Positions 4,050 through 44,355 of a stretch of 64,000 nt of DNA are shown piece after piece. The stretch lies in NCBI RefSeq assembly GCF_019968905.1, contig NZ_CP079946.1, forward strand, positions 9,087,356 to 9,151,355, written 5' to 3'. The stretch's first letter is position 1. Each line of letters begins with the position of its first letter. The position numbers and the translations under genes were made by a program. The notes under the pieces were generated by a model, which was not told the origin of the DNA, did no database searches, and was given only the letters and a program-made list of their open reading frames with translations. This DNA is from Corallococcus sp. EGB. GTDB taxonomy: Bacteria > Myxococcota > Myxococcia > Myxococcales > Myxococcaceae.

Positions 4050-6872
4050 ATGCTGGGCCTCCCCAACCCCCGCCTCGCCTCCGCGCTCGTGGCAGAACCC
4101 AGTCCCCAGCAATTCGGCAAGTACGTCCTGGTCTCCAAGCTTGCCGCGGGAGGCATGGCGGTCACCTACCGCGCACGCCTGACGGGCGCGATGGGCGTGA
4201 CCAAGCCGTGCGTCATCAAGCAGATCCTCCCGCACTTCGTGGACGACCACGACTTCGTGGAGATGTTCATCAGCGAGGCGCGCCTGGTGGCGGGCCTGAC
4301 GCACGGGAACATCGCGCAGGTCTTCGACTTCGGTGAGGTGGACGGGCAGTACTTCATCGCCATGGAGCTGGTGCACGGCCAGCCCCTGTCCAAGGTGCTG
4401 CGCCGCGCCTCGCGCGCGGGCATCGGGTTCTTCCCCCAGCCGCTGGCGCTGCACATCATCAGCAAGCTGTGCGAGGGCCTGGACTACGCGCACCGCCACG
4501 TGGGCGAGGACGGCCGGATGCTGGGCCTGGTCCACCGTGACGTGTCCCCGGACAACGTCCTCATCTCCTACGAGGGCGAGGTCAAGGTCATCGACTTCGG
4601 CATCGCCAAGGCGACGAGCGCGGTGGAGGCCAAGACGTCGCCGGGCACGCTCAAGGGCAAGTACCCGTACTTCTCCCCGGAGCAGGCCCACGGCCGCCAG
4701 GACCTGGACGCGCGCACGGACGTGTACGCGGCGGGCGTCGTCCTCTATGAGATGCTCTGCGGCCGGCGCCCCTTCGAGGGCGAGTTCGTCACCGTGCTGC
4801 CCCGCATCCTGCAGGGCGACTGCCTGCCTCCGTCCGCCGTCAACCCGACCATTGGCGAGGACCTGGAGAGCATCATCGCGCACGCGATGGCGGTGGACCG
4901 CGACACGCGCTACCAGACGGCGAAGGACCTGAGCGAGTCCGCGGTGGAGCTGCTCTACCGGGACACGCCCCGCTTCACGCCGGCGATGCTCAGCCAGCTC
5001 ATGACGTACCTCTTCGCGGAGGAGCTGGCCGCCGAGGGCCGCAAGGTGGAGCTGGCGCCCGGCTTCAAGGAGCAGCTGGCCGCGTGGCAGTCGCCGGGCT
5101 CGGAGCCCTCGCAGGGCCGCGCGCGGCTGCCGTCGAGCAACGGCCGGTCTTCCAACCCCGGCAGCCCCGGCGTGGCCCGCCCGTCGAGCCCGGGCGTGGC
5201 GCGGCCCTCCAGCCCCGGGGTGCGCTCCACGGGCAGCACGCCCGCCCTGCGCCCCTCGACCGACGGCGCCCCGCGCCGCGCGACCACCGACGCCACCGCC
5301 GTGCGCCGCAACACCAGCACCGGCGCGCGCCGCGTGACGACGGGGGCCCCGCGCGAGACCACCGGCACCGGCCGCCGCCCCCTGCCGCCCGAGCTTCCGC
5401 CCGAGCCGGACACCGACTCCGGCACGGAGCCCACGGCGATGCCCCGGGCGCTGCCCACGCTGGCCGCGCCGCGTGACACACCGGTGGAGACGGCCATCGC
5501 GCCGGAGCCGCCGGCCCCTGAGGAGAAGCAGGCCCCCCGCGCCCGCACCACCGCGGACGACGCGCGCGACAAGCTGGCCGCCGAGGCCACCGAGCGCGAG
5601 CGCAAGCGCGTGAAGCAGGTGCGCCAGCTGAGCATCGTCGTGTTCGGCATCACCGCCGCGCTCGTCGTCCTCGGCCTGCTGCTGCACTTCCTGTCCCCGC
5701 CGGAAGTCCCCGAAGGCACCAACGAGCCCGTCGTCCTGTGGATCACCTCCCAGCCGGCGGGGGCCGCCATCGTCGTCAACGGCCGGCCGGTGGGGAACAC
5801 GCCCAGCCGCATCATCGGCGCGGAGCAACACACGCCCCACACCATCGTCGTCACCCGGCCGGGCTACCGCGCCTGGACGCGGCGCTTCACCCCCAACCAG
5901 CCGGAGGTCCACCTCAAGGCGGAGCTGGAGGTGGCGCCCGGCACCACCCAGATGGCGTCGGAGATTCCCACCTCCGCCACGCTCGACGCGGGCACCGCCG
6001 CCGTCGCCGCCGCGGCCGTCCCCGCCGAGGACGCGGGCACCTCCCTGGAGGCGGACGGCGGCCTGGCCTCCGCCGACGCGGGGAGCGTGACGGGCGAGGA
6101 CGCGCTGGCGAATGACCCGGACCGCGAGATGCGGCGCGTGGACTACCCCACCCGCCTGCTGGTGCTGCGCCCCATGTACAACGCGCTCCCGCTGCCGGAG
6201 TACCCGACGGCCACCATCGACGTGTCGCCCTCGGTGGCATACTCCGTGTGGACGGAAGGCAGCGCTGCGTTCGCGAGCGGCGACGGCACCACGTCCGGCA
6301 CGCTCGTCTACTACGCGGAGGGAGACCTGCCGGCGGACAACGCCGTGGGCTTCGTCAGCAGCGCGCCGCGCAGCATCAAGGGCGCGAAGAAGCTCCACTT
6401 CTTCGCCCTGGATGACACCGGCCCCGAGGACAACCGCGGCTCCATCCGCGTGCACCTGCGGCAGTCCGCGTACGTCCCGCCCCGCTCGGTGCTGTTCGAG
6501 GCGGACAAGAACGCCGTGCAGGTGAAGCCCCAGCACCAGATGCTGCTGCGCGGCCTCAACCCCCAGTCCACCTATGCGTTCACCGTGCGCGACGACTTCG
6601 CGGAGGTGCACGCCGGCGCCAACGGCCGCGTGCACACGGTGCTGTGCGTGGAGAAGGGCCCCCGGGCCGAGTCCGTGCGCAGCACGCACCGCCTCTTCGA
6701 GACGGGCAAGCGCTACCAGGTGTCCGGCGTGGAGGAGCTGCGCTGCGTCTTCCCCGACCTGCGGCTGGGGGACAACCAGGGTGCGCTCGACTTCGACATC
6801 GTCGACGTGACGAACATGTCCCGCAAGGAGCGCGCGGAAGCGCTGCGCGGCGCCCGGAGCGCCGAGCGGTAG
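4050..6872 (+). CDS. Membrane Ser/Thr protein kinase with PEGA domain
   Basis: 940 residues. The ATG at 4050 follows AAGGAGAG; the frame is open further upstream but without coding character. The Hanks-type kinase domain spans about 24-300: a glycine-rich loop (LAAGGMA 31-37), catalytic Lys57, Glu76, HRD 162-164 (HRDVSPDN) and DFG 182-184, so it should be active. A low-complexity linker (about 345-500) contains tandem PGVARPSS repeats and many Thr/Arg residues. One transmembrane helix (about 527-548) is followed by a PEGA domain (about 562-625), usually linked to the cell surface, and an unassigned C-terminal region. The topology is a cytoplasmic kinase with an external sensor. It stands alone and divergent from the barrel-protein operon. 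Confidence 0.92.
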   Translation: MLGLPNPRLASALVAEPSPQQFGKYVLVSKLAAGGMAVTYRARLTGAMGVTKPCVIKQILPHFVDDHDFVEMFISEARLVAGLTHGNIAQVFDFGEVDGQYFIAMELVHGQPLSKVLRRASRAGIGFFPQPLALHIISKLCEGLDYAHRHVGEDGRMLGLVHRDVSPDNVLISYEGEVKVIDFGIAKATSAVEAKTSPGTLKGKYPYFSPEQAHGRQDLDARTDVYAAGVVLYEMLCGRRPFEGEFVTVLPRILQGDCLPPSAVNPTIGEDLESIIAHAMAVDRDTRYQTAKDLSESAVELLYRDTPRFTPAMLSQLMTYLFAEELAAEGRKVELAPGFKEQLAAWQSPGSEPSQGRARLPSSNGRSSNPGSPGVARPSSPGVARPSSPGVRSTGSTPALRPSTDGAPRRATTDATAVRRNTSTGARRVTTGAPRETTGTGRRPLPPELPPEPDTDSGTEPTAMPRALPTLAAPRDTPVETAIAPEPPAPEEKQAPRARTTADDARDKLAAEATERERKRVKQVRQLSIVVFGITAALVVLGLLLHFLSPPEVPEGTNEPVVLWITSQPAGAAIVVNGRPVGNTPSRIIGAEQHTPHTIVVTRPGYRAWTRRFTPNQPEVHLKAELEVAPGTTQMASEIPTSATLDAGTAAVAAAAVPAEDAGTSLEADGGLASADAGSVTGEDALANDPDREMRRVDYPTRLLVLRPMYNALPLPEYPTATIDVSPSVAYSVWTEGSAAFASGDGTTSGTLVYYAEGDLPADNAVGFVSSAPRSIKGAKKLHFFALDDTGPEDNRGSIRVHLRQSAYVPPRSVLFEADKNAVQVKPQHQMLLRGLNPQSTYAFTVRDDFAEVHAGANGRVHTVLCVEKGPRAESVRSTHRLFETGKRYQVSGVEELRCVFPDLRLGDNQGALDFDIVDVTNMSRKERAEALRGARSAER

Positions 6873-6877
6873 CGGCC

Positions 6878-6910
6878 GGACGTCCGGGCCCCCGCCCGGC
6901 GAGGACGTCC
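6878..6910 (+). terminator. Possible terminator hairpin after the kinase gene
   Basis: GGACGTCC occurs at 6878-6885 and 6903-6910 and can pair with itself across a GGGC/GCCC inner stem. No clear T-run follows, so this is a moderate candidate only. Confidence 0.35.
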
Positions 6911-7021
6911 AGCAGGCGAGCACCCCCTTGACGCCCGGGCCCACCCTGACGCGCTGCTCCCGCGCGCGGGGCCAGTGCCTACCCTCACGGACATCCACTT
7001 CTTCTCCACGGGAGTCCGTCC

Positions 7022-7579
7022 ATGATGCCCGTCCTGTCTTCGACTGGTCTGGTGCTGCACAACCTGGGGCTCGCCGTGGGCTTCGGCGGTTCGCTCTTCG
7101 GCAAGGTGGCCCTCAACCCCGCGGTGAAGGTGATTGGCTCCGAGGCCGAGCGCGGCCAGGTGGTGAACGCCGCCTGGAATGGCTTCAACATCATCAACGC
7201 CGCGTCCGTGGGCCTGGCGGCCATCACCTGGCTGGTGGGCCGCTCGCGGCTGACGGGCCGGGAGATTGACCGCACCACGCGCAGGCTGGTCATCGCGAAG
7301 GACGTGCTGCTGGGCGCCAGCGTGGCGCTGGGCGCGGCCAACATCTTCGGCGGGGCCTTCCTCGCGAAGCAGGCCCCCGAGGGCGCCGTCCCGTCGGAGA
7401 CGGGCCTGACGCCCACCGCGGGCACGCCGGAGAGGGCCGCGAAGACGATGCGGGCGCTGGACGCGGGCGGCATCGCGAACCTCGCCACCATGGCGGGCGT
7501 CATCGGCATCACCGCCATCCTGAACATGCGCGCGGGGACGTCCTCGCGCTGGTCACTGGTCGCCAGGTTCCTTCCGTAA
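7022..7579 (+). CDS. Hypothetical integral membrane protein
   Basis: 185 residues, starting at ATG 7022 (a second ATG follows at 7025). Hydropathy suggests three to four membrane helices: about 8-26, 55-72, 95-115 and 148-168. Glycine-rich stretches (LAVGFGGSLFGK, ASVALGAANIFGGAF) are typical of packed helices. No cofactor or catalytic motif is apparent and I do not recognise the family. It is monocistronic, convergent with gyrB, and separated from it by a strong gyrB terminator. Confidence 0.65.
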   Translation: MMPVLSSTGLVLHNLGLAVGFGGSLFGKVALNPAVKVIGSEAERGQVVNAAWNGFNIINAASVGLAAITWLVGRSRLTGREIDRTTRRLVIAKDVLLGASVALGAANIFGGAFLAKQAPEGAVPSETGLTPTAGTPERAAKTMRALDAGGIANLATMAGVIGITAILNMRAGTSSRWSLVARFLP

Positions 7580-35806: not shown

Positions 35807-36627
35807 GGGGAGGGCTTCTCCAACAGGAAGGACGTCTGGTCCAGGCCCGCGGGCAGGGTCAGCGGCGCGGTGCGCGCCTCGGGGGATGCGGCCAGGACGC
35901 GCGCGGCGGCCATCACGCCCTCCAGTTCGAAGGGGGCGTCCGCGGTGACGAGGAAGAAGCGCTCGAAGCCGGGGGCGTCGTCCAGCTCGTAGGCGCGGGG
36001 CAGGACGTGCGCGCCACTGCGCTCCAGGGGCGCGGAGGTGTCCCCCTGGGAGGGCAGGTGCGGGGTGACGGTGCCCCGGCCGTCCACGGAGAGGATGACG
36101 CCGTGGGCGTGGCCGGCGGCGGTGTACGACAGCTGCACCACGTCACCGGCCTGGGCCCGGGCGCCGTCGGTGAGGCGCTCGGTGCGGGTGGCGACCTGGC
36201 GGTGGACGTCGAGCCGGGGCTGCAGCCCCTTGCTGCGCGTGGGCTCCAGGACGCCGGGGGAGGACGTCGCGGCCCACGGGTCGTGCGCCTCCTGCTGCTG
36301 GGACGCCCCCGGCCGGACGAGGACGACGAAGGCGGCGGCGGCGAGCACCGGCACCAGAGCGGGCAGGAAGCGCCAGGAAGGGCGCGATGCGGGGGCCTCG
36401 GCGGGGGGTGTGGCGCGGGCGAAGCGGGCCTTCACCTCGCGGGCGACGCGGTCCGGGGGCAGCGCCTCCAGGGTGGCGCGCGAGTCGGCCTCCAGGGCGG
36501 CGAGGCGGGCGGGGCCGTCGGGTTCGCGGGACAGGCGGTCGCGGGCGGCGGCGAGTTCGTCCGGGGGCAGCTCCCCCAGGGCGATGCGCTCCAGCAGCCA
36601 GTCCGGGGTGCGGTGGGGGGACGTCAT
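35803..36627 (-). CDS. Anti-sigma factor with DUF4384-like periplasmic domain
   Basis: 274 residues from ATG 36627, which overlaps the sigma factor stop by ATGA. The N-terminal cytoplasmic part (about 1-80) is helical; no HxxxCxxC zinc motif is present, so it is not a ZAS-type anti-sigma domain. One membrane helix (about 86-104) follows. The periplasmic part (about 135-260) contains AGDVVQLSYTAAGHAHGVILSVDGRGTVTPHLP, a pattern similar to DUF4384 domains. Its position between sigma factor and caspase gene, with single-pass topology, supports a role as the membrane anti-sigma sensor. Confidence 0.78.
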   Translation of the reverse strand: MTSPHRTPDWLLERIALGELPPDELAAARDRLSREPDGPARLAALEADSRATLEALPPDRVAREVKARFARATPPAEAPASRPSWRFLPALVPVLAAAAFVVLVRPGASQQQEAHDPWAATSSPGVLEPTRSKGLQPRLDVHRQVATRTERLTDGARAQAGDVVQLSYTAAGHAHGVILSVDGRGTVTPHLPSQGDTSAPLERSGAHVLPRAYELDDAPGFERFFLVTADAPFELEGVMAAARVLAASPEARTAPLTLPAGLDQTSFLLEKPSP

Positions 36628-37103
36628 GCGGCCTCCAGCTCCTGCAGGACAGCGGACAGGGCCCGGAGGCGCTTGCGCACTCCGGACACGGACAGGCCCA
36701 CCTCGCGGGCGGTCTCCTCCAGCGTCATGCCGTCCACCAGGTGGAGCACGGCGATGTCGCGGCTGGACGCGGGGACGCGGCCGAAGAGCCGGTCCAGCAG
36801 GCCCCGGGCGGCGGTGCGCGCCTCGGTGTCTCCGGACGCGGCGATTCTCAGCACCAGCTCGTCGTCGCGGTCCTCGGGGCGCCGCTTGGCGCCGCGCAGG
36901 CGGTTGAGGCACACGCGGGTGGCAATCTGATGCAGCAGGCTGGAGGGTCCGGCGTCCTTCAGGGCGGACTGGTAGCGCAAGAGCTGAACGAACACGTCAT
37001 GCATGGCGTCCACGGCCTGTTCCTCGTCGCGCAGCAGGAAGCGGCAGCGCCGGAGCACCTGGGGGCCATAGCGTCGGTAATAGGCCTCCACATCGACGGA
37101 CAC
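36624..37103 (-). CDS. ECF sigma factor
   Basis: 159 residues. The GTG at 37103 is chosen because GGGAGG lies 8 bases before it; the longer frame upstream has no coding support. Region 2 is seen at about 5-70 (AVDAMHDVFVQLLRY) and region 4 at about 105-155 (PASSRDIAVLHLVDGMTLEETAREVGLSVSGVRKRLR, a helix-turn-helix for the -35 element). Regions 1 and 3 are absent, as expected for ECF factors. It is translationally coupled to the anti-sigma gene and probably directs this operon and others. The group is not one I can name. Confidence 0.88.
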   Translation of the reverse strand: MSVDVEAYYRRYGPQVLRRCRFLLRDEEQAVDAMHDVFVQLLRYQSALKDAGPSSLLHQIATRVCLNRLRGAKRRPEDRDDELVLRIAASGDTEARTAARGLLDRLFGRVPASSRDIAVLHLVDGMTLEETAREVGLSVSGVRKRLRALSAVLQELEAA

Positions 37104-37292
37104 CGCTCGCGCCTCCCGGTTGGACAGGGGAACACCGGCGCCCCGCGAATCTGTCACCGGCGTTTTGACGAAAGCGGCGTCCCTACCCCGTTTCCCCCAC
37201 CCAGGCCACCCACGGCCGGGAAAGGAAGGCCTGCACGTCCGCTCGCCGGATCCATCCTGGGCGAGCGGAGCACACCCGCCCACCCCAAGCCC

Positions 37293-38755: not shown

Positions 38756-39415
38756 GTGATCCAAACGACCCCTGCCATCGACTCGCTGCGGGCGCGGTAC
38801 CTGGCCGCGCAGCTCTCCGGAAACCGCCAGGAGGCCCTGCGCCTGCTCGTGGATGAGGGGCTCTTGTGCGGAGTGCCCCTCCAGGAGCTCCACCTGGACG
38901 TCATCCAGGCGGCCCAGTACGAAATCGGGCGGCTCTGGCAGGAGAACATCATCTCCGTGGCCCAGGAGCACCTGGCCACCGCCATCTCCCAGTACGTCCT
39001 GGCCCACCTGTACCGCCACCTGCCCCGCGACCCGTCCAACGGCAAGACCGTGATGATGGCGTGCGTGGAGGGCGAGCTGCACGAAGTGGGCGCGCGCATG
39101 GCCAGCGACTTCCTGGAGATGGCCGGCTTCGACGTGCGCTTCCTCGGCGCCAACATGCCCGCGGACCACCTGGCCCGCATGGTGCGTGAGTCCCCGCCGG
39201 ACCTCGTGGCCCTCTCCGTCTCCATGCCCTTCCACATGCCCCAGGTCCGCGAGGCCGTGCGCAAGGTGCGCGAGGTGGCTCCGTCCCTGCCCATCGCCGT
39301 GGGCGGACTCGCCTTCGACTGGGGCCCCGTGCTGGAAGAGGAACTGGCCGTGTCCTTCTTCGGCAAGAGCGTCCGCGAGCTGGTCGCCTCCGCCTGCCGC
39401 CTCCTGGGAGTCTGA
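38756..39415 (+). CDS. Stand-alone cobalamin-binding photosensor-like protein
   Basis: 219 residues, GTG start. A four-helix B12-binding cap (about 10-90) contains Trp61, nine residues, then Glu71-His72: the Wx9EH motif of AdoCbl photoreceptors of the CarH family. The Rossmann-like B12 domain (about 97-215) has GELHEVG (106-112); His109 is the expected lower axial ligand, with Glu107 in place of the usual Asp of DxHxxG. SVSMPF and AVGGLAF form the further B12-tail contacts. Unlike CarH there is no N-terminal MerR helix-turn-helix, so the output must be through protein partners. It heads an operon with two hybrid histidine kinases. Confidence 0.88.
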   Translation: MIQTTPAIDSLRARYLAAQLSGNRQEALRLLVDEGLLCGVPLQELHLDVIQAAQYEIGRLWQENIISVAQEHLATAISQYVLAHLYRHLPRDPSNGKTVMMACVEGELHEVGARMASDFLEMAGFDVRFLGANMPADHLARMVRESPPDLVALSVSMPFHMPQVREAVRKVREVAPSLPIAVGGLAFDWGPVLEEELAVSFFGKSVRELVASACRLLGV

Positions 39416-39419
39416 CGTC

Positions 39420-40127
39420 ATGCCGCCGCACGTGAGCCACCAGGTGGAGGCGCGGACCCCGTCCATCGCTTCCGCTTCAGTCCAAGCTTTGTATGAGGAC
39501 CCGTTCTGGGCCGCGCGCTACGGCATCCAGCGCGCGCGGCGCTTCGGAGACGAGGACGCCGTCTTCCACGTGCGCTACCTCGTCCAGGCCCTGGACGCGT
39601 CCCGCCCCGCCATCCTGGAGGACTACGCGCGCTGGCTGCGCACCCTGCTCGTCACCCGCGGGATGTGCTCGCTCCATCTGGATCAGCACTTCGAGGGGCT
39701 CTCCCGCGCCCTCCAGGCAGAGGGCTTCGGCCCGGACTCGCTGCCGCACACCTACGTCCATGCCGCCCGCCAGGCCCTGCGCTACCGGGAAGGCCCTGCC
39801 CACGCGCTGGAAGCGGATGCCCCCGGGCTCATCAGCGCGGTCGTCCGGCGGCTGGAGGCCCCACTTCCTTCGGGAAGTCGCCCCCGGCTGGAACAAGAGG
39901 TGCGGCTCCAGTTGTCCTATCTCGCGGATGCACTCGCACTGGACCGCGCGGACCTGTGGGACGCCCACCTCCAATGGTACGCGGGCTTCTGGCCCCAGCG
40001 GGGGCTCTCCCCCCTGACCCTTCCCCACCTCCTGGACGCGCTGAAGGCGGCCCTGGAGGACGGACATCCCCATGCGCGGTCGTTGCTCGCGCGGGCACCC
40101 GTTTCATGGGAGGAGACGCACTCATGA
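39420..40127 (+). CDS. Unknown helical protein with internal duplication
   Basis: 235 residues, ATG 39420, four bases after the cobalamin-protein stop. It is all-helical and built from two similar halves: HVRYLVQALDASRPAILEDYARWLRTLLV...LDQHFEGLSRAL (about 45-105) and QLSYLADALALDRADLWDAHLQWYAGFWP...LPHLLDALKAAL (about 160-220). The conserved pattern YL-x2-AL-x4-(R/D)-A-x3-(E/D)-x-(Y/H) suggests a repeated helical hairpin. No heme, flavin or catalytic motif stands out. Its position between a B12 sensor and a kinase, overlapping the latter's start, suggests an adaptor or second sensor. The function is not known. Confidence 0.75.
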   Translation: MPPHVSHQVEARTPSIASASVQALYEDPFWAARYGIQRARRFGDEDAVFHVRYLVQALDASRPAILEDYARWLRTLLVTRGMCSLHLDQHFEGLSRALQAEGFGPDSLPHTYVHAARQALRYREGPAHALEADAPGLISAVVRRLEAPLPSGSRPRLEQEVRLQLSYLADALALDRADLWDAHLQWYAGFWPQRGLSPLTLPHLLDALKAALEDGHPHARSLLARAPVSWEETHS

Positions 40128-42175
40128 TGAAAGAGGATGACCGCGCCTCCGGGATCTTCGAATCCCTCAGCCGCGAGCTTGCGTTGGCCTGCGATGCGCA
40201 AGGCACGGTCGTCTGGCGCGACGAGCGCGCGGCGCGCATCCTGGGCATCAAGCCCGGACAGGCGCTGAAGGACCTGGCCAGCCACGGCAGCGAGAGCAAG
40301 GTGGACAAGCTGCTCGCGCAGGCCCGCGACGAAGCCGTGGACGGCTGGGAGCTCATCCTCCAGAGCCACCAGAAGCCCGCGACGTTCGCCTTCCGCGCCC
40401 GCCCGCACGAGGGCGGTGTCGCGCTGGTGGGCAGCCTGGTGCCGGAGGACTACGGCGCCGCGCTCACCCAGGTGAGCACCACGCTGGGCGAGCTGTCCGC
40501 GCTCCACCGCGAGACGGAGCGCCAGCAGCACGAGCTCAAGCGCCGCGCGGAGGAGCTGGCCCGCCTGAACCGCGAGCTGGAGGAGTCCAACCGCGGCGTG
40601 CGCAGCCTGCACGCCGCCCTGGACGAGAAGGCGGAGAGCCTCCAGCGCGCGTCCGAAATCAAGAGCCGCGTGGTGGCCAACGTGAGCCACGAGTTCCGCA
40701 CGCCGCTGCACTCCATCCTCGGGCTGTCGAAGGTGCTGCTCAATCCGCTCAACGGCAGCCTCGCGCCGGAGCAGGAGAAGCAGGTCCAGTTCATCCGCGG
40801 CTCCGCGGAGGCGCTCTTCGAGCTGGTCAATGACTTGCTGGACCTGTCCAAGGTGGAGTCCGGCAAGACGACGCTGCGCCACAGCCGCTTCGTCGCGTCC
40901 GACCTCATCAGCGCGCTGCGCGGCATGACGCGGCCCCTGCTGCCGCCGGACTCGACGGTGGCGCTCAACTTCGAGGAGCCGCGGGAGCCCCTGGAGCTGG
41001 AGACGGACGAGGCCAAGCTCAGCCAGGTGGTGCGCAACCTCATCTCCAACGCGCTCAAGTTCACCGAGTCCGGCTCCGTCACGGTGACCGCGGCCCCGGG
41101 CCCGCGCGACACGGTGGTGTTCACCGTGAAGGACACGGGCATCGGCATCGCGCCGGAGAACCACGAGCGCGTCTTCGAGGAGTTCATCCAGGTGGACAGC
41201 CACCTGCAGCGGCGCGTGAAGGGCACCGGCCTGGGCCTTCCGCTCGCGCGCAAGCTGACGGAGCTGCTCGGCGGCACGCTCACCGTGCAGAGCCGGCTGG
41301 GGGAAGGCGCCACCTTCACCATCACCCTGCCGCGCATCCACCCGGAGGTGTCGGAGATGACGGGGCTCACCCAGCGCAGCGCGACGCTGGACCCCGCGCG
41401 CGCGCCGGTGCTGGTGCTGGAGGACGACCGCCAGACGCTCTTCCTCTACGAGAAGTACCTGGCGCGCTCCGGCTTCCAGGTGCTGCCCGTGCGCAGCGTG
41501 GACGAAGCGCGCAAGGTGATGCAGCGCGTGCGCCCCGCGGCCATGGTGCTGGACGTGATGCTGGAGGGCGAGACGTCCTGGAGCTTCCTCGCGGAGATGA
41601 AGAACGGCGAGCAGACGCGCGACATCCCCGTCCTCGTCGTCACCGTGACGGACCGCGAGCAGAAGGCGCGCGCCCTGGGCGCGGACGAGTTCTGGCTCAA
41701 GCCCGTGGACGAGACGCGCCTGCAGAAGAAGCTGTCCGCCATGGCGCGCACCGGGCCGATGGAGCGGCTGCTCATCATCGACGACGACGACGTGCACCGC
41801 TACCTGCTCAAGCAGCTCTTGAAGGACACCCAGTTCCAGCTGCTGGAGGCCGCCAACGGCCGCGAGGGCGTCCGCATCGCCCGCGAGCACGCCCCGCACC
41901 TCATCTTCCTGGACTTCGTGCTGCCGGACATCACCGCCTTCGACGTGCTGGATGAGCTGAAGGCGGATCCACGCACGCGCGACATCCCCATCATCCTGCA
42001 CACCTCCCACCAGCTGCAGGAGTCGGAGCGCCAGCGGCTGGCGCGCGAGACCTCCGCCATCCTGGCCAAGCACACGCTCAGCCGGGAGGTGGCCATCACC
42101 CGCATCCGTGACGCCCTGTCCAAGGCGGGCCTCGGCGGAAACCGGGAGCTGCGGGAGGTGAACCCCCGTGGCTGA
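40124..42175 (+). CDS. Hybrid histidine kinase, PAS-HK-REC-REC
   Basis: 683 residues. The ATG at 40124 has GGGAGGAG upstream and overlaps the previous stop by ATGA. An N-terminal PAS-like domain (about 10-105) is followed by a coiled coil (about 115-180), HisKA with His189 (NVSHEFRTPLHSIL), and HATPase with N (NLISNALKFT), G1 (KDTGIGIA) and G2 (GTGLGLPLA) boxes. Two receiver domains follow: Asp477 (MVLDVML) and Asp597 (FLDFVLP). It has no membrane segment. Signal input probably comes from the cobalamin protein or the helical protein of the same operon. The final REC could phosphorylate a downstream histidine phosphotransferase elsewhere. Confidence 0.92.
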   Translation: MMKEDDRASGIFESLSRELALACDAQGTVVWRDERAARILGIKPGQALKDLASHGSESKVDKLLAQARDEAVDGWELILQSHQKPATFAFRARPHEGGVALVGSLVPEDYGAALTQVSTTLGELSALHRETERQQHELKRRAEELARLNRELEESNRGVRSLHAALDEKAESLQRASEIKSRVVANVSHEFRTPLHSILGLSKVLLNPLNGSLAPEQEKQVQFIRGSAEALFELVNDLLDLSKVESGKTTLRHSRFVASDLISALRGMTRPLLPPDSTVALNFEEPREPLELETDEAKLSQVVRNLISNALKFTESGSVTVTAAPGPRDTVVFTVKDTGIGIAPENHERVFEEFIQVDSHLQRRVKGTGLGLPLARKLTELLGGTLTVQSRLGEGATFTITLPRIHPEVSEMTGLTQRSATLDPARAPVLVLEDDRQTLFLYEKYLARSGFQVLPVRSVDEARKVMQRVRPAAMVLDVMLEGETSWSFLAEMKNGEQTRDIPVLVVTVTDREQKARALGADEFWLKPVDETRLQKKLSAMARTGPMERLLIIDDDDVHRYLLKQLLKDTQFQLLEAANGREGVRIAREHAPHLIFLDFVLPDITAFDVLDELKADPRTRDIPIILHTSHQLQESERQRLARETSAILAKHTLSREVAITRIRDALSKAGLGGNRELREVNPRG

Positions 42176-43700
42176 GGAACCCCGCCTGGCGACGGTCCTC
42201 AACGTCAACGACGACGAGGCCAACCGCTACCTGGTCAACCGCATCCTGGAGATGTCCGGCTACCGCGTGCTGGAGGCGGCCACCGGCATGGCCGCGCTCC
42301 TCATGGCGGAGGAGCACCGCCCGGACGTCATCGTCCTGGACGTGAAGCTGCCGGACATCAGCGGCTACGAGGTCTGCGCGCGCCTCAGGGCCAACGCGGC
42401 CACGGCCGCCATCGCGGTGATGCACACGTCCGCGACGTTCGTCACGCCGGACAAGAAGGTGCAGGGCCTGGAGGGCGGCGCGGACGCATACCTCACCCAG
42501 CCCTACGAGCCGTCGGAGCTCATCGCCACGGTGCGCTCGCTCTTGCGCCTGCGTCACGCGGAGCAGCAGGCCCGGCTGCGCACGGACCAGCTCATTGAAA
42601 TGGACCGGCGCAAGGACGAGTTCCTGGCCATGCTGGGCCACGAGCTGCGAAACCCGCTCGCCGCCATCATGACGGCCATTGGCATCCTGGAGCGCAAGGC
42701 GCCCACGGACACCAAGGAAGCGCGGATGCACGGCATCATCCAGCGCCAGACGCACCACCTGGCGCGGCTGGTGGATGACCTGCTGGACGTCAGCCGCATC
42801 ACCCGGGGCAAGGTGGAGCTGCGCAAGGAGACGCTGAACCTGACGGCCATCTTCCAGCAGGTGCTCTCCATCCTGCGCCCCCGCGTGGAGGCGCGCGGCC
42901 TGACGCTGGAGGCCCACCTGCCCCGCACGCCGCTGTGGCTGGAGGGCGACGCCACCCGCCTGGAGCAGGTCTTCACCAACCTGGTGGACAACGCGGCCAA
43001 GTACACGGACCAGGGCTGCGTCACCGTGGAGCTGTTCCAGGAGGGCGTGGACGGCAGCGCGCAGGCGGTGCTGCGGGTGAAGGACACCGGCATCGGCATC
43101 CCGCCGGAGAAGCTGCCCGCCATGTTCGAGCTGTTCGCCCAGGCGGACACGTCCCTGGAGCGCTCGCGCGGGGGCCTGGGCATTGGCCTCACCCTGGTGC
43201 GCACGCTGGTGCGGATGCACGGCGGCACCGTGGACGCCACCAGCGGCGGCCCGGGCCAGGGCAGCGAGTTCATGGTGCGGCTGCCGCTGCTCCCGGAGGC
43301 CCGCGTCTGCCCGCCGGTCGGGGCCCACCTCCTGGACGCGCGGCGCGCGCGGCGCATCCTCCTGGTGGAGGACAACTCGGACGCGCGTCAGTCCATGCGC
43401 GACCTCCTGGAGCTGTGGGGTCACCAGGTGGCGGTGGCCCAGGACGGCGTGCAGGGCGTGGCGCTGGCCCTGGAGCACGCGCCGGACCTGGCGCTGGTGG
43501 ACATTGGCCTGCCGGGGTTGGACGGCTACCAGGTGGCTCGCGCCCTCCGCGCTCGGGTGGGGCAGGGCCTGCGGCTGGTGGCGCTCAGCGGCTACGGCGA
43601 CCCGGAGGCCTACCAGCAGGCCCTGAGGGCCGGGTTCGACGTGCACCTCACCAAGCCGGTGCGGCCCGCCGACCTGGATCGCGTCCTGTCGAACCTGTGA
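42168..43700 (+). CDS. Hybrid histidine kinase, REC-HK-REC
   Basis: 510 residues, GTG start overlapping the previous gene by 8 bases. The N-terminal receiver has Asp58 (VIVLDVKLP), but its usual Lys-Pro is Gln-Pro (YLTQPYEP), as seen in some kinases with regulatory receivers. HisKA carries His158 (LGHELRNPLAAI), HATPase has VDNAAKYT, KDTGIGIP and GGLGIGLTL, and a C-terminal receiver (ILLVEDNSD; LALVDIGLP; TKPV) ends the protein. It is cytoplasmic and lacks its own sensor domain, so it may accept phosphate from the preceding kinase through its first receiver. It is the last gene of the B12-sensor operon. Confidence 0.92.
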   Translation: MAEEPRLATVLNVNDDEANRYLVNRILEMSGYRVLEAATGMAALLMAEEHRPDVIVLDVKLPDISGYEVCARLRANAATAAIAVMHTSATFVTPDKKVQGLEGGADAYLTQPYEPSELIATVRSLLRLRHAEQQARLRTDQLIEMDRRKDEFLAMLGHELRNPLAAIMTAIGILERKAPTDTKEARMHGIIQRQTHHLARLVDDLLDVSRITRGKVELRKETLNLTAIFQQVLSILRPRVEARGLTLEAHLPRTPLWLEGDATRLEQVFTNLVDNAAKYTDQGCVTVELFQEGVDGSAQAVLRVKDTGIGIPPEKLPAMFELFAQADTSLERSRGGLGIGLTLVRTLVRMHGGTVDATSGGPGQGSEFMVRLPLLPEARVCPPVGAHLLDARRARRILLVEDNSDARQSMRDLLELWGHQVAVAQDGVQGVALALEHAPDLALVDIGLPGLDGYQVARALRARVGQGLRLVALSGYGDPEAYQQALRAGFDVHLTKPVRPADLDRVLSNL

Positions 43701-43752: not shown

Positions 43753-44118
43753 CTACCGCCGCGTCAGGGCGTTGGCCACCAGGCCCAGCAGCTTCACCTG
43801 GGCGGGGTCCAGCTGGCGCACGCTGCGCAGCAGCCGGCGGACTTCCGGGCGCTCCGGCGTGGGCGGCGGCGCCTCGCTCGTGCGCGACGGCGGCGCGCCC
43901 TGCGCGGACAGCCCCAGCAGCTCGTCCGCGGAGACGTGCAGCTCGTGGCACAGCTTCAGCAGGGTCTGGACGCTGGGGAGCATACCGCCGCGCTCCAGGC
44001 GGCCGTACACTTCCGTCGCCACGTCGATCCGCTCGGCCACGTCGGCCTGCGTCAGCTCCATGCGGCCCCGGGCGACCCGAGCCGATGCGCCGATGGTGGT
44101 TGCGAGTTTCTTGTCCAT
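43753..44118 (-). CDS. XRE family transcriptional regulator
   Basis: 121 residues from ATG 44118 (MDKKLATTIG); an in-frame ATG at 44157 lacks a ribosome binding site. A Cro/CI helix-turn-helix covers about 8-65 (MELTQADVAERIDVATEVYGRLERGGMLPSVQTLLKLCHEL). The C-terminal part is a Pro-rich linker and a short helix (LRSVRQLDPAQVKLLGLVANAL). It could act on the divergent small ORF and DUF2378 gene or its own promoter. It is convergent with the end of the kinase operon. Confidence 0.82.
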   Translation of the reverse strand: MDKKLATTIGASARVARGRMELTQADVAERIDVATEVYGRLERGGMLPSVQTLLKLCHELHVSADELLGLSAQGAPPSRTSEAPPPTPERPEVRRLLRSVRQLDPAQVKLLGLVANALTRR

Positions 44119-44355
44119 GCCTTTGCTTGCCGACCCGAAACGTTTGGCCGACGGCATAGGACGTATAGAGGCAGACAGACAGAACTTGCCGGGTCAGCCT
44201 CCCATTGTTCACCCATAGGGTCGCTGCGCGGGAGGTGGACTTTCGGAGTCCGGGTAACCCCGACACCCACGGCTCTTTTGAGACGGAGCGCCCTCTGGAA
44301 ACGGCCTCCGCGAGGTGCATCCCCACGCGTTTCCGGGCTTGTCCGGAGGTGACCC

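Follow-up and report, generated by a model that had tools for sequence, protein, structure and literature searches.

A window of 64,000 nucleotides (nt) from Corallococcus sp. EGB (contig NZ_CP079946.1, positions 9,087,356 to 9,151,355; genome of 9.43 Mb) contains a tight operon of four genes at window positions 38756-43700 on the forward strand. The genes, called P0001 to P0004 in their order, encode a cobalamin-binding protein, a tandem globin and two hybrid histidine kinases. L numbers denote loci and G numbers the genomes compared.

38756-39415, forward strand: P0001, a stand-alone, photocobilin-like cobalamin-binding protein of 219 amino acids (aa) with a GTG start and the Pfam domains B12-binding_2 and B12-binding
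39420-40127, forward strand: P0002, a tandem bilin-type globin of 235 aa
40124-42175, forward strand: P0003, a hybrid kinase of 683 aa with a PAS domain, a long helix, HisKA, HATPase and two receiver (REC) domains
42168-43700, forward strand: P0004, a hybrid kinase of 510 aa with the order REC, HisKA, HATPase, REC

A gap of 4 bases separates P0001 from P0002; P0002 and P0003 overlap by 4 nt, and P0003 and P0004 by 8 nt. The coordinates of all four genes agree with a first-pass annotation made from the sequence alone, which had described the same gap and small overlaps.

P0001 consists of two cobalamin domains only, and Pfam finds no DNA-binding domain of the MerR type in it. The residues known to surround the cofactor in related light receptors are present, at the positions that the first-pass annotation had given while already noting that a MerR domain was missing. 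Their counterparts in the photocobilin SasPcob are W61, E71-H72 and H108.

38936-38971, forward strand: codons W61 to E71-H72, the signature of the adenosyl pocket; W61 in 47/47 and E71 and H72 in 46/47 covering rows of the P0001 alignment
39080-39082, forward strand: codon H109, the predicted lower axial cobalt ligand, corresponding to SasPcob H108; 47/47 covering rows

The alignment has 48 rows and includes distant homologues; L060, a fragment, does not contain these sites, and one of the genome's own MerR-type genes is counted twice. According to the main text of PMC11796333, the SignatureFinder signature of light-responsive cobalamin domains consists of GxxW, EH, GxxH and GxxxP. All four elements are found in P0001, as G58..W61, E71-H72, G106..H109 and G131...P135, with G131 and P135 in 47/47 rows and G106 in 42/47.

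The nearest solved relatives of P0001 are the photocobilins 8j2x and 8j2w (E 2e-29) and 8j2y (2e-25), followed by the MerR-type CtMerR (3e-23). Chains named CarH match at 4e-8 or weaker in the same PDB sequence search, so the CarH type to which the protein had first been assigned gives way to the photocobilins. The signature of the cobalamin domain is shared with CarH and LitR, but P0001 lacks their MerR domain, is more distant in sequence, and has Gln62 after Trp61, as in SasPcob, where TtCarH has His132. From this residue, a light state like that of SasPcob rather than that of CarH is expected. Separate MerR-B12 proteins, L002 and L004, are encoded in the same genome and do carry the MerR-type DNA-binding domain. 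A tree of cobalamin domains was not used for placement, because its deep forks were unresolved, its long branches met, and both rows labelled as the genome's own CarH proved to be one gene.

Weak matches of P0001 in NCBIfam and the PDB to corrinoid proteins and to MetH suggest another possibility, that it is the corrinoid protein of a methyltransferase system and lies near the kinases by chance. The NCBIfam scores are far below cut-off, neither Pfam nor NCBIfam finds a methyltransferase among the four genes, and GxxW...EH is conserved; this explanation is very improbable.

The second protein is harder to recognize. As a single sequence, P0002 has no noteworthy match in Pfam, NCBIfam or the PDB, and its globin nature becomes visible only through profile, fold and motif. 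An AlphaFold2 model built from 24 sequences is all helical, with a predicted local distance difference test score (pLDDT) of 94 and a predicted template modelling score (pTM) of 0.89. In VIA-align, the photocobilin globin 8j2w ranks first (Z 16.4, root-mean-square deviation (rmsd) 2.1 over 116 residues, model aa 1-123), ahead of phycobiliproteins, none of them above Z 14.9, and of smURFP with 14.2 and 14.0. Nearly all of the 50 matches listed are bilin globins, with the caveat that helical folds can yield high Z. When the family profile is compared with the PDB, 8j2x (E 1.5e-4) and 8j2w (1.6e-4) lead through the second half of the protein, the match spanning aa 128-225, and 8j2y is sixth at 0.64.

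The two halves are homologous to each other (HHalign probability 94, E 1.5e-7). Given the fold and profile matches, both can be read as photoglobin-like. The first-pass annotation had called P0002 an unknown helical duplicated protein; helices and duplication both stand, and the protein can now be named a double bilin-type globin. Compared as a single sequence with six globin-like stretches, domain 2 gives HHalign probabilities of 90 (L101), 85 (SasPcob), 79 (L107), 20 (L106), 1 (L099) and 0.3 (L102); domain 1 gives 37 (L101), 14 (SasPcob) and below 4 for the remainder. With the six stretches aligned jointly, the values are 93 for domain 2 and 52 for domain 1, and two B12-domain controls stay below 0.3.

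39420-39788, forward strand: globin domain 1 (aa 1-123), structurally matched by the 8j2w globin, with D46, H50, W72 and RGMC
39555-39557, forward strand: codon D46, aligned with the biliverdin-contacting SasPcob Asp270; Asp in 39/39 covering rows
39633-39635, forward strand: codon W72, aligned with SasPcob Trp296 at the bilin D ring; Trp in 35/39, Ser in 4/39
39657-39668, forward strand: the BBAG-2 motif RGMC, R80-C83; Cys in 30/39 covering rows
39789-40124, forward strand: globin domain 2 (aa 124-235), with an acidic position 160 and W186; the profile match to photocobilin runs through this half

Asp270 and Trp296 are named as biliverdin contacts of SasPcob in the main text of PMC10979010, and they align with D46 and W72 of domain 1 and with E160 and W186 of domain 2. 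For the mapping, chain index and paper numbering were taken to differ by 6, a value that agrees at once with His108, Trp296 and the VIA chain range. Of the 40 rows in the P0002 alignment, in which metagenome-assembled genomes (MAGs) of Thermomicrobiales are included, 39 cover these sites; H50 is found in all 39, and position 160 is Glu or Asp in all 39.

HisKA, HATPase and receiver domains are found by Pfam in P0003 and P0004, and P0004 has a receiver at each end. Pfam reports no PAS domain in P0003 at E <= 1. A PAS fold is nevertheless predicted by AlphaFold2 for aa 1-175 (pLDDT 86.7), with a best Foldseek E of 6e-6 and a structural match of Z 12.8 and rmsd 1.9 over 95 residues. The kinase architectures proposed in the first-pass annotation, PAS-HK-REC-REC and REC-HK-REC, are thereby borne out by Pfam for the kinase and receiver domains and by predicted fold for PAS. 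Pfam reports no HPt or output domain in the four genes.

40172-40444, forward strand: P0003 PAS domain (aa 17-107), from the AlphaFold2 model and structure matches
40451-40645, forward strand: P0003 signalling helix (aa 110-174) of the AlphaFold2 model, a proposed docking site

Structures of PpsR N-Q-PAS1 are among the top Foldseek matches of the P0003 N-terminus. As described in the main text of PMC9144470, AppA binds, through its cobalamin-type SCHIC domain, the helix that follows the N-terminal PAS domain of PpsR, and by analogy the sensor may dock on the PAS domain and helix of P0003. The action of AerR and AppA-SCHIC on CrtJ and PpsR thus offers a cobalamin-type domain working in trans on a protein with PAS and helix; there, however, the target is a transcription factor and no bilin globin takes part, whereas here the target is a hybrid kinase and a bilin globin is present.

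A second kinase resembling P0004 exists in Corallococcus, at G000:C1:8997795-8998922 (52% identical) and G018:C1:9588865-9590373 (56%); its frame is open in G018, and in the window's genome a TGA breaks it.

Conservation of the set can be followed through the family and beyond. A P0001 match (E <= 0.001) occurs in 94/96 family genomes, a count to which further cobalamin proteins, MerR-B12 regulators and methionine synthase among them, contribute. P0002 is found in 59/96 family genomes, in 8 of 26 genera, and in 60/195 genomes of the phylum, the extra one being a broken copy at L108 (G123), where genes like P0003 and P0004 lie with a P0002 fragment on the opposite strand and no P0001. The gene order in other myxobacteria had been suggested in the first-pass annotation as a check, and it holds: P0001-P0002-P0003-P0004 is kept in 22/27 loci with a complete P0001 homologue of at least 51% identity. 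These comprise 21/21 loci at identities of at least 64% and 1/6 at 51-53% (L050, with a bilin reductase ahead of P0003). Such retention argues that the arrangement did not arise by chance. With start codons chosen by script, the overlap of P0003 and P0004 is 8 nt in 21 of the 22 ordered loci and that of P0002 and P0003 is 4 nt in 18. P0001 homologues that lack the operon, with no P0002 following, lie at L045, L046, L051 and L052 (51-52%) and at L049/L110 (G082, 52%). P0003 (E <= 1e-100) is present in 18/24 P0002-bearing genomes tested and in 0/6 without P0002.

A scan of named genomes gave 37 loci, of which 24 of Myxococcaceae type (L116-L139) overlap with the 27-locus set. All four genes stand in order in 20 of the 24, among them Myxococcus xanthus AM003 (L130; G078), whose genome gives two matches to heme oxygenase and none to PHY; a 2025 review describes M. 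xanthus as without bacteriophytochromes. A Myxococcus-like copy of the whole operon also appears at L129, in a record titled Comamonas sp. KCTC 72670, a title that is probably wrong. At L144 the P0001 match passes into a second frame near its end. The exceptions among the 24 are L122, which runs off its contig, L131, the internal deletion of G067, and L126 and L127. The last two, with G076, are Myxococcus-group genomes that keep the sensor pair, P0001 and P0002 both looking intact, beside a damaged kinase.

L127 (Myxococcus sp. CA023), 6720-7230: P0003 without kinase core
L126, 8743-10252: P0004 in two frames
G076:C7:95691-96731: only aa 337-683 of P0003 found, the first 336 aa missing

Loss of the operon provides a further kind of evidence. 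Four genomes (G060, G069, G071 and G072) keep P0002 and have no close P0001, P0003 (E <= 1e-100) or P0004 (E <= 1e-60), while two flanking genes, named from their own sequences, are still in place.

36624-37283, reverse strand: sigma-factor-like gene upstream of the operon
43753-44157, reverse strand: convergent XRE-type regulator

The sigma-factor-like gene is retained beside the P0002 remnant in these operon-less loci, L056-L059. The XRE gene is a conserved neighbour in Corallococcus and Myxococcus-group loci, and was not found at L042-L044, L047, L048, L050, L064 and L065 or at the three Polyangia loci tested. It was dropped as a candidate output of the operon, since it persists where the operon has been lost and several operons lack it as a neighbour.

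The orphaned P0002 carries F49A, Y53H, W72S and C83S. Its domain 1 is 58% identical to that of eight P0002 proteins of the same genus group (80% among those eight) and its domain 2 is 75% identical (82% among the eight). Within the four, the ratio of nonsynonymous to synonymous change (pN/pS) comes to 0.42 in domain 1 and to 0.11 in domain 2 (aa 122-229). This can be read as dependence of domain 1, and not of domain 2, on the operon partners. G067 has lost the whole of P0003 and the greater part of both P0001 and P0004, and its P0002 residues are unchanged; RGMC is likewise unchanged in L126 and L127. Decay of P0002 is therefore not immediate. Taken together, the damaged and lost copies indicate that the operon is not essential and that its decay within the Myxococcus group was not a single event.

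Outside the family, the same proteins occur in other arrangements. In seven loci of Polyangia, six from Nannocystis and one from Kofleriaceae, a heme oxygenase gene, P0001 and P0002 lie on one strand and P0003 and P0004, at 49-53% identity, are divergent from them. An eighth locus, L143, has heme oxygenase and P0002 only. Pfam confirmed the heme oxygenase in 3/3 loci tested (L143, L147 and L151), two of which belong to the seven. A bilin reductase is found by Pfam in L148, L140 and L149, and in L148, a MAG, the operon reads P0001-P0002-bilin reductase-P0003-P0004. A 112-aa open reading frame (ORF) ahead of P0001 in L148 was considered as a heme oxygenase and rejected; it has no Pfam match and yields split fragments only, so that it is a remnant at most. 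No P0003 orthologue was found within the 3.7 to 12.6 kb covered at the Thermomicrobiales/Thermomicrobiaceae MAG loci L140, L142 and L149; in the DNA covered, L140 also lacks P0001, and L142 has only weak receiver-like matches.

Other B12 domains also adjoin kinases. At L099, a single ORF joins a globin-like N-terminal stretch, weak on its own, to a B12 domain and is followed at -4 by a kinase with PAS matches above the Pfam cut-off. At L100 and L114 a B12 domain overlaps a histidine kinase gene, with a PAS match that is below cut-off in L100 and absent in L114. At L104 and L109, another stand-alone GxxW-EH B12 domain neighbours a histidine kinase gene of the opposite strand, and at L113 a P0001 paralogue (52%) adjoins a divergent histidine kinase, with a phytochrome gene about 3 kb away.

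It might be asked whether the four genes are simply co-transcribed neighbours without joint function. Other neighbours, such as the convergent XRE gene, are syntenic without an evident link, and the pair persists beside a damaged kinase in the three genomes listed above. Set against this, the same four proteins are linked in a different arrangement in Polyangia, and four genomes have lost P0001, P0003 and P0004, which are mostly deleted in a fifth as well, with both flanking genes, XRE and sigma-type, still in place. A set without joint function is improbable.

Heme oxygenase, the proposed source of the bilin, is found in 59/59 P0002-bearing family genomes and in 9/37 others, and the Fisher p of 9e-17 overstates the association because the genomes are related. 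No PHY match occurs in 17/59 of the P0002-bearing genomes. The window's genome has two heme oxygenase matches, one beside its only PHY match and the other (L111) elsewhere. The former adjoins a bacteriophytochrome at L112, 4144-7192 (G000:C1, about 1.098-1.101 Mb).

Three known systems invite comparison. Photocobilins, represented by SasPcob and AbDPcob (PMC10979010, main text), combine a cobalamin domain with W-x9/10-EH and a His axial ligand, as found in P0001, with a five-helix phycobilin-type globin, to which P0002 is closest both by profile and by structure. There, both domains belong to one polypeptide; here they are divided between two genes, the globin is duplicated and has the RGMC Cys in domain 1, and the partners are hybrid histidine kinases. 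As the domains lie on two polypeptides, the pair is described as working like a photocobilin and is not classed as one.

BBAG-2 proteins are Myxococcales globins with an RGMC motif that adjoin B12-binding proteins in genomes with heme oxygenase (PMC10151467, main text). P0002 shares all of these properties. The BBAG-2 cluster contains a pre-2 bilin reductase, which is missing from the window's four genes, though a bilin reductase stands beside the globin in L148, L140 and L149; here, unlike there, two kinases are part of the unit. Bacteriophytochromes resemble the system in placing histidine kinases under biliverdin-based control, but their PAS-GAF-PHY core is not found in the four proteins, in which Pfam reports no GAF or PHY domain at E <= 1, and the genome's phytochrome is separate.

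The association of B12-binding protein, globin and heme oxygenase was thus already known. In the literature searched, covered as main texts, no report of this four-gene operon, of its kinase output or of the tandem globin was found. The words "kinase" and "operon" are absent from the main text of PMC10979010, and "kinase" from that of PMC11796333; in the main text of PMC10151467, "kinase" appears once, in the references, and "tandem" does not appear.

What was computed here comprises domain and fold assignments, the retained gene order, the link with bilin enzymes in relatives, and the co-loss. From these, pigment binding, complex formation, a light response and the direction of kinase control can be proposed for the four proteins. 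The core idea of the first-pass annotation, that a B12 photosensor-like protein without DNA-binding domain feeds a phosphorelay, is the best reading, the light sensing and kinase control being deductions. Since P0002 is a double bilin-type globin, the sensor is predicted to be, and probably is, a two-pigment one. The best explanation overall, with a chance slightly better than even, is a split photocobilin on two polypeptides that acts in trans on hybrid kinases.

In such a mechanism, P0001 would bind adenosylcobalamin (AdoCbl) with His109 below and Trp61 and Glu71-His72 around the adenosyl group, and would be photolysed by green light as in photocobilins. Heme oxygenase would supply biliverdin, to be bound by domain 1 of P0002, and P0002 would pack on P0001 like the fused globin of a photocobilin, adding sensitivity to red light. 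A light-driven change in the P0001-P0002 assembly may then be relayed in trans to the PAS domain and linker helix of P0003. Phosphate would pass through the receivers of P0003 and P0004 to an output encoded outside the operon.

Several observations weigh against the split photocobilin. Foldseek gives no match for the P0002 model at E <= 0.001, photocobilin coming first at 0.066, so that the VIA-align list and the profile search settled its assignment, and domain 1 matches the SasPcob globin weakly by sequence, though the structural match covers it. Ser or Ala replaces the RGMC Cys in L042, L044, L047, L062 and L065, where all four genes are kept, and in L043 (G006) aa 61-111 of P0002 are missing from an otherwise intact operon; bilin may therefore not always be needed. 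The three genomes with damaged kinases lowered confidence in the explanation. Constraint on domain 2 after the loss of all partners (L056-L059) implies that part of P0002 has another role, and the four operon-less genomes form one clade and probably record one event. Finally, the two BBAG-2 proteins tested were photoinert by themselves (PMC10151467, main text); on the supporting side, both had carried biliverdin adducts when made in E. coli.

The replaced cysteines and the largely deleted domain 1 of L043 would suit a photoreceptor kinase system that uses B12 only, in which P0001 drives P0003 and P0004 through AdoCbl and P0002 is a structural adaptor with an optional or vestigial bilin site, as may be the case in AbDPcob, whose biliverdin occupancy is given as about 20% in the main text of PMC10979010. 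Globin-less B12-domain ORFs overlapping histidine kinase genes, as in L100 and L114, fit the same idea. It does not account well for D46 and H50 in every covering row and W72 in 35 of 39, even with Thermomicrobiales MAGs included, or for the heme oxygenase or bilin reductase genes that adjoin the pair, or the globin, in distantly related lineages, and it is unlikely.

Alternatively, the pair may not be a light receptor at all and may report cofactor state to the kinases, such as AdoCbl supply, redox or heme breakdown via biliverdin. The photoinert BBAG-2 proteins and the heme oxygenase adjoining the pair in Polyangia are in keeping with this. All four light-response motifs are, however, present and conserved in P0001, and its nearest solved homologues are light receptors, which leaves a cofactor-state sensor rather improbable.

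If the split photocobilin is correct, the operon would encode a cobalamin-bilin receptor that acts in trans on histidine kinases, and it would reveal how the photocobilin module recombines. It would also supply an output for the association of B12, globin and heme oxygenase reported in 2023. Because M. xanthus AM003 has all four genes, the question can be tested directly in a standard laboratory organism. On a broader view, put tentatively at just under an even chance, a two-subunit cobalamin and biliverdin photoreceptor controlling a multi-step phosphorelay is ancient in Myxococcota, and would give M. xanthus and its relatives a green and red light input beyond CarH that needs no phytochrome.

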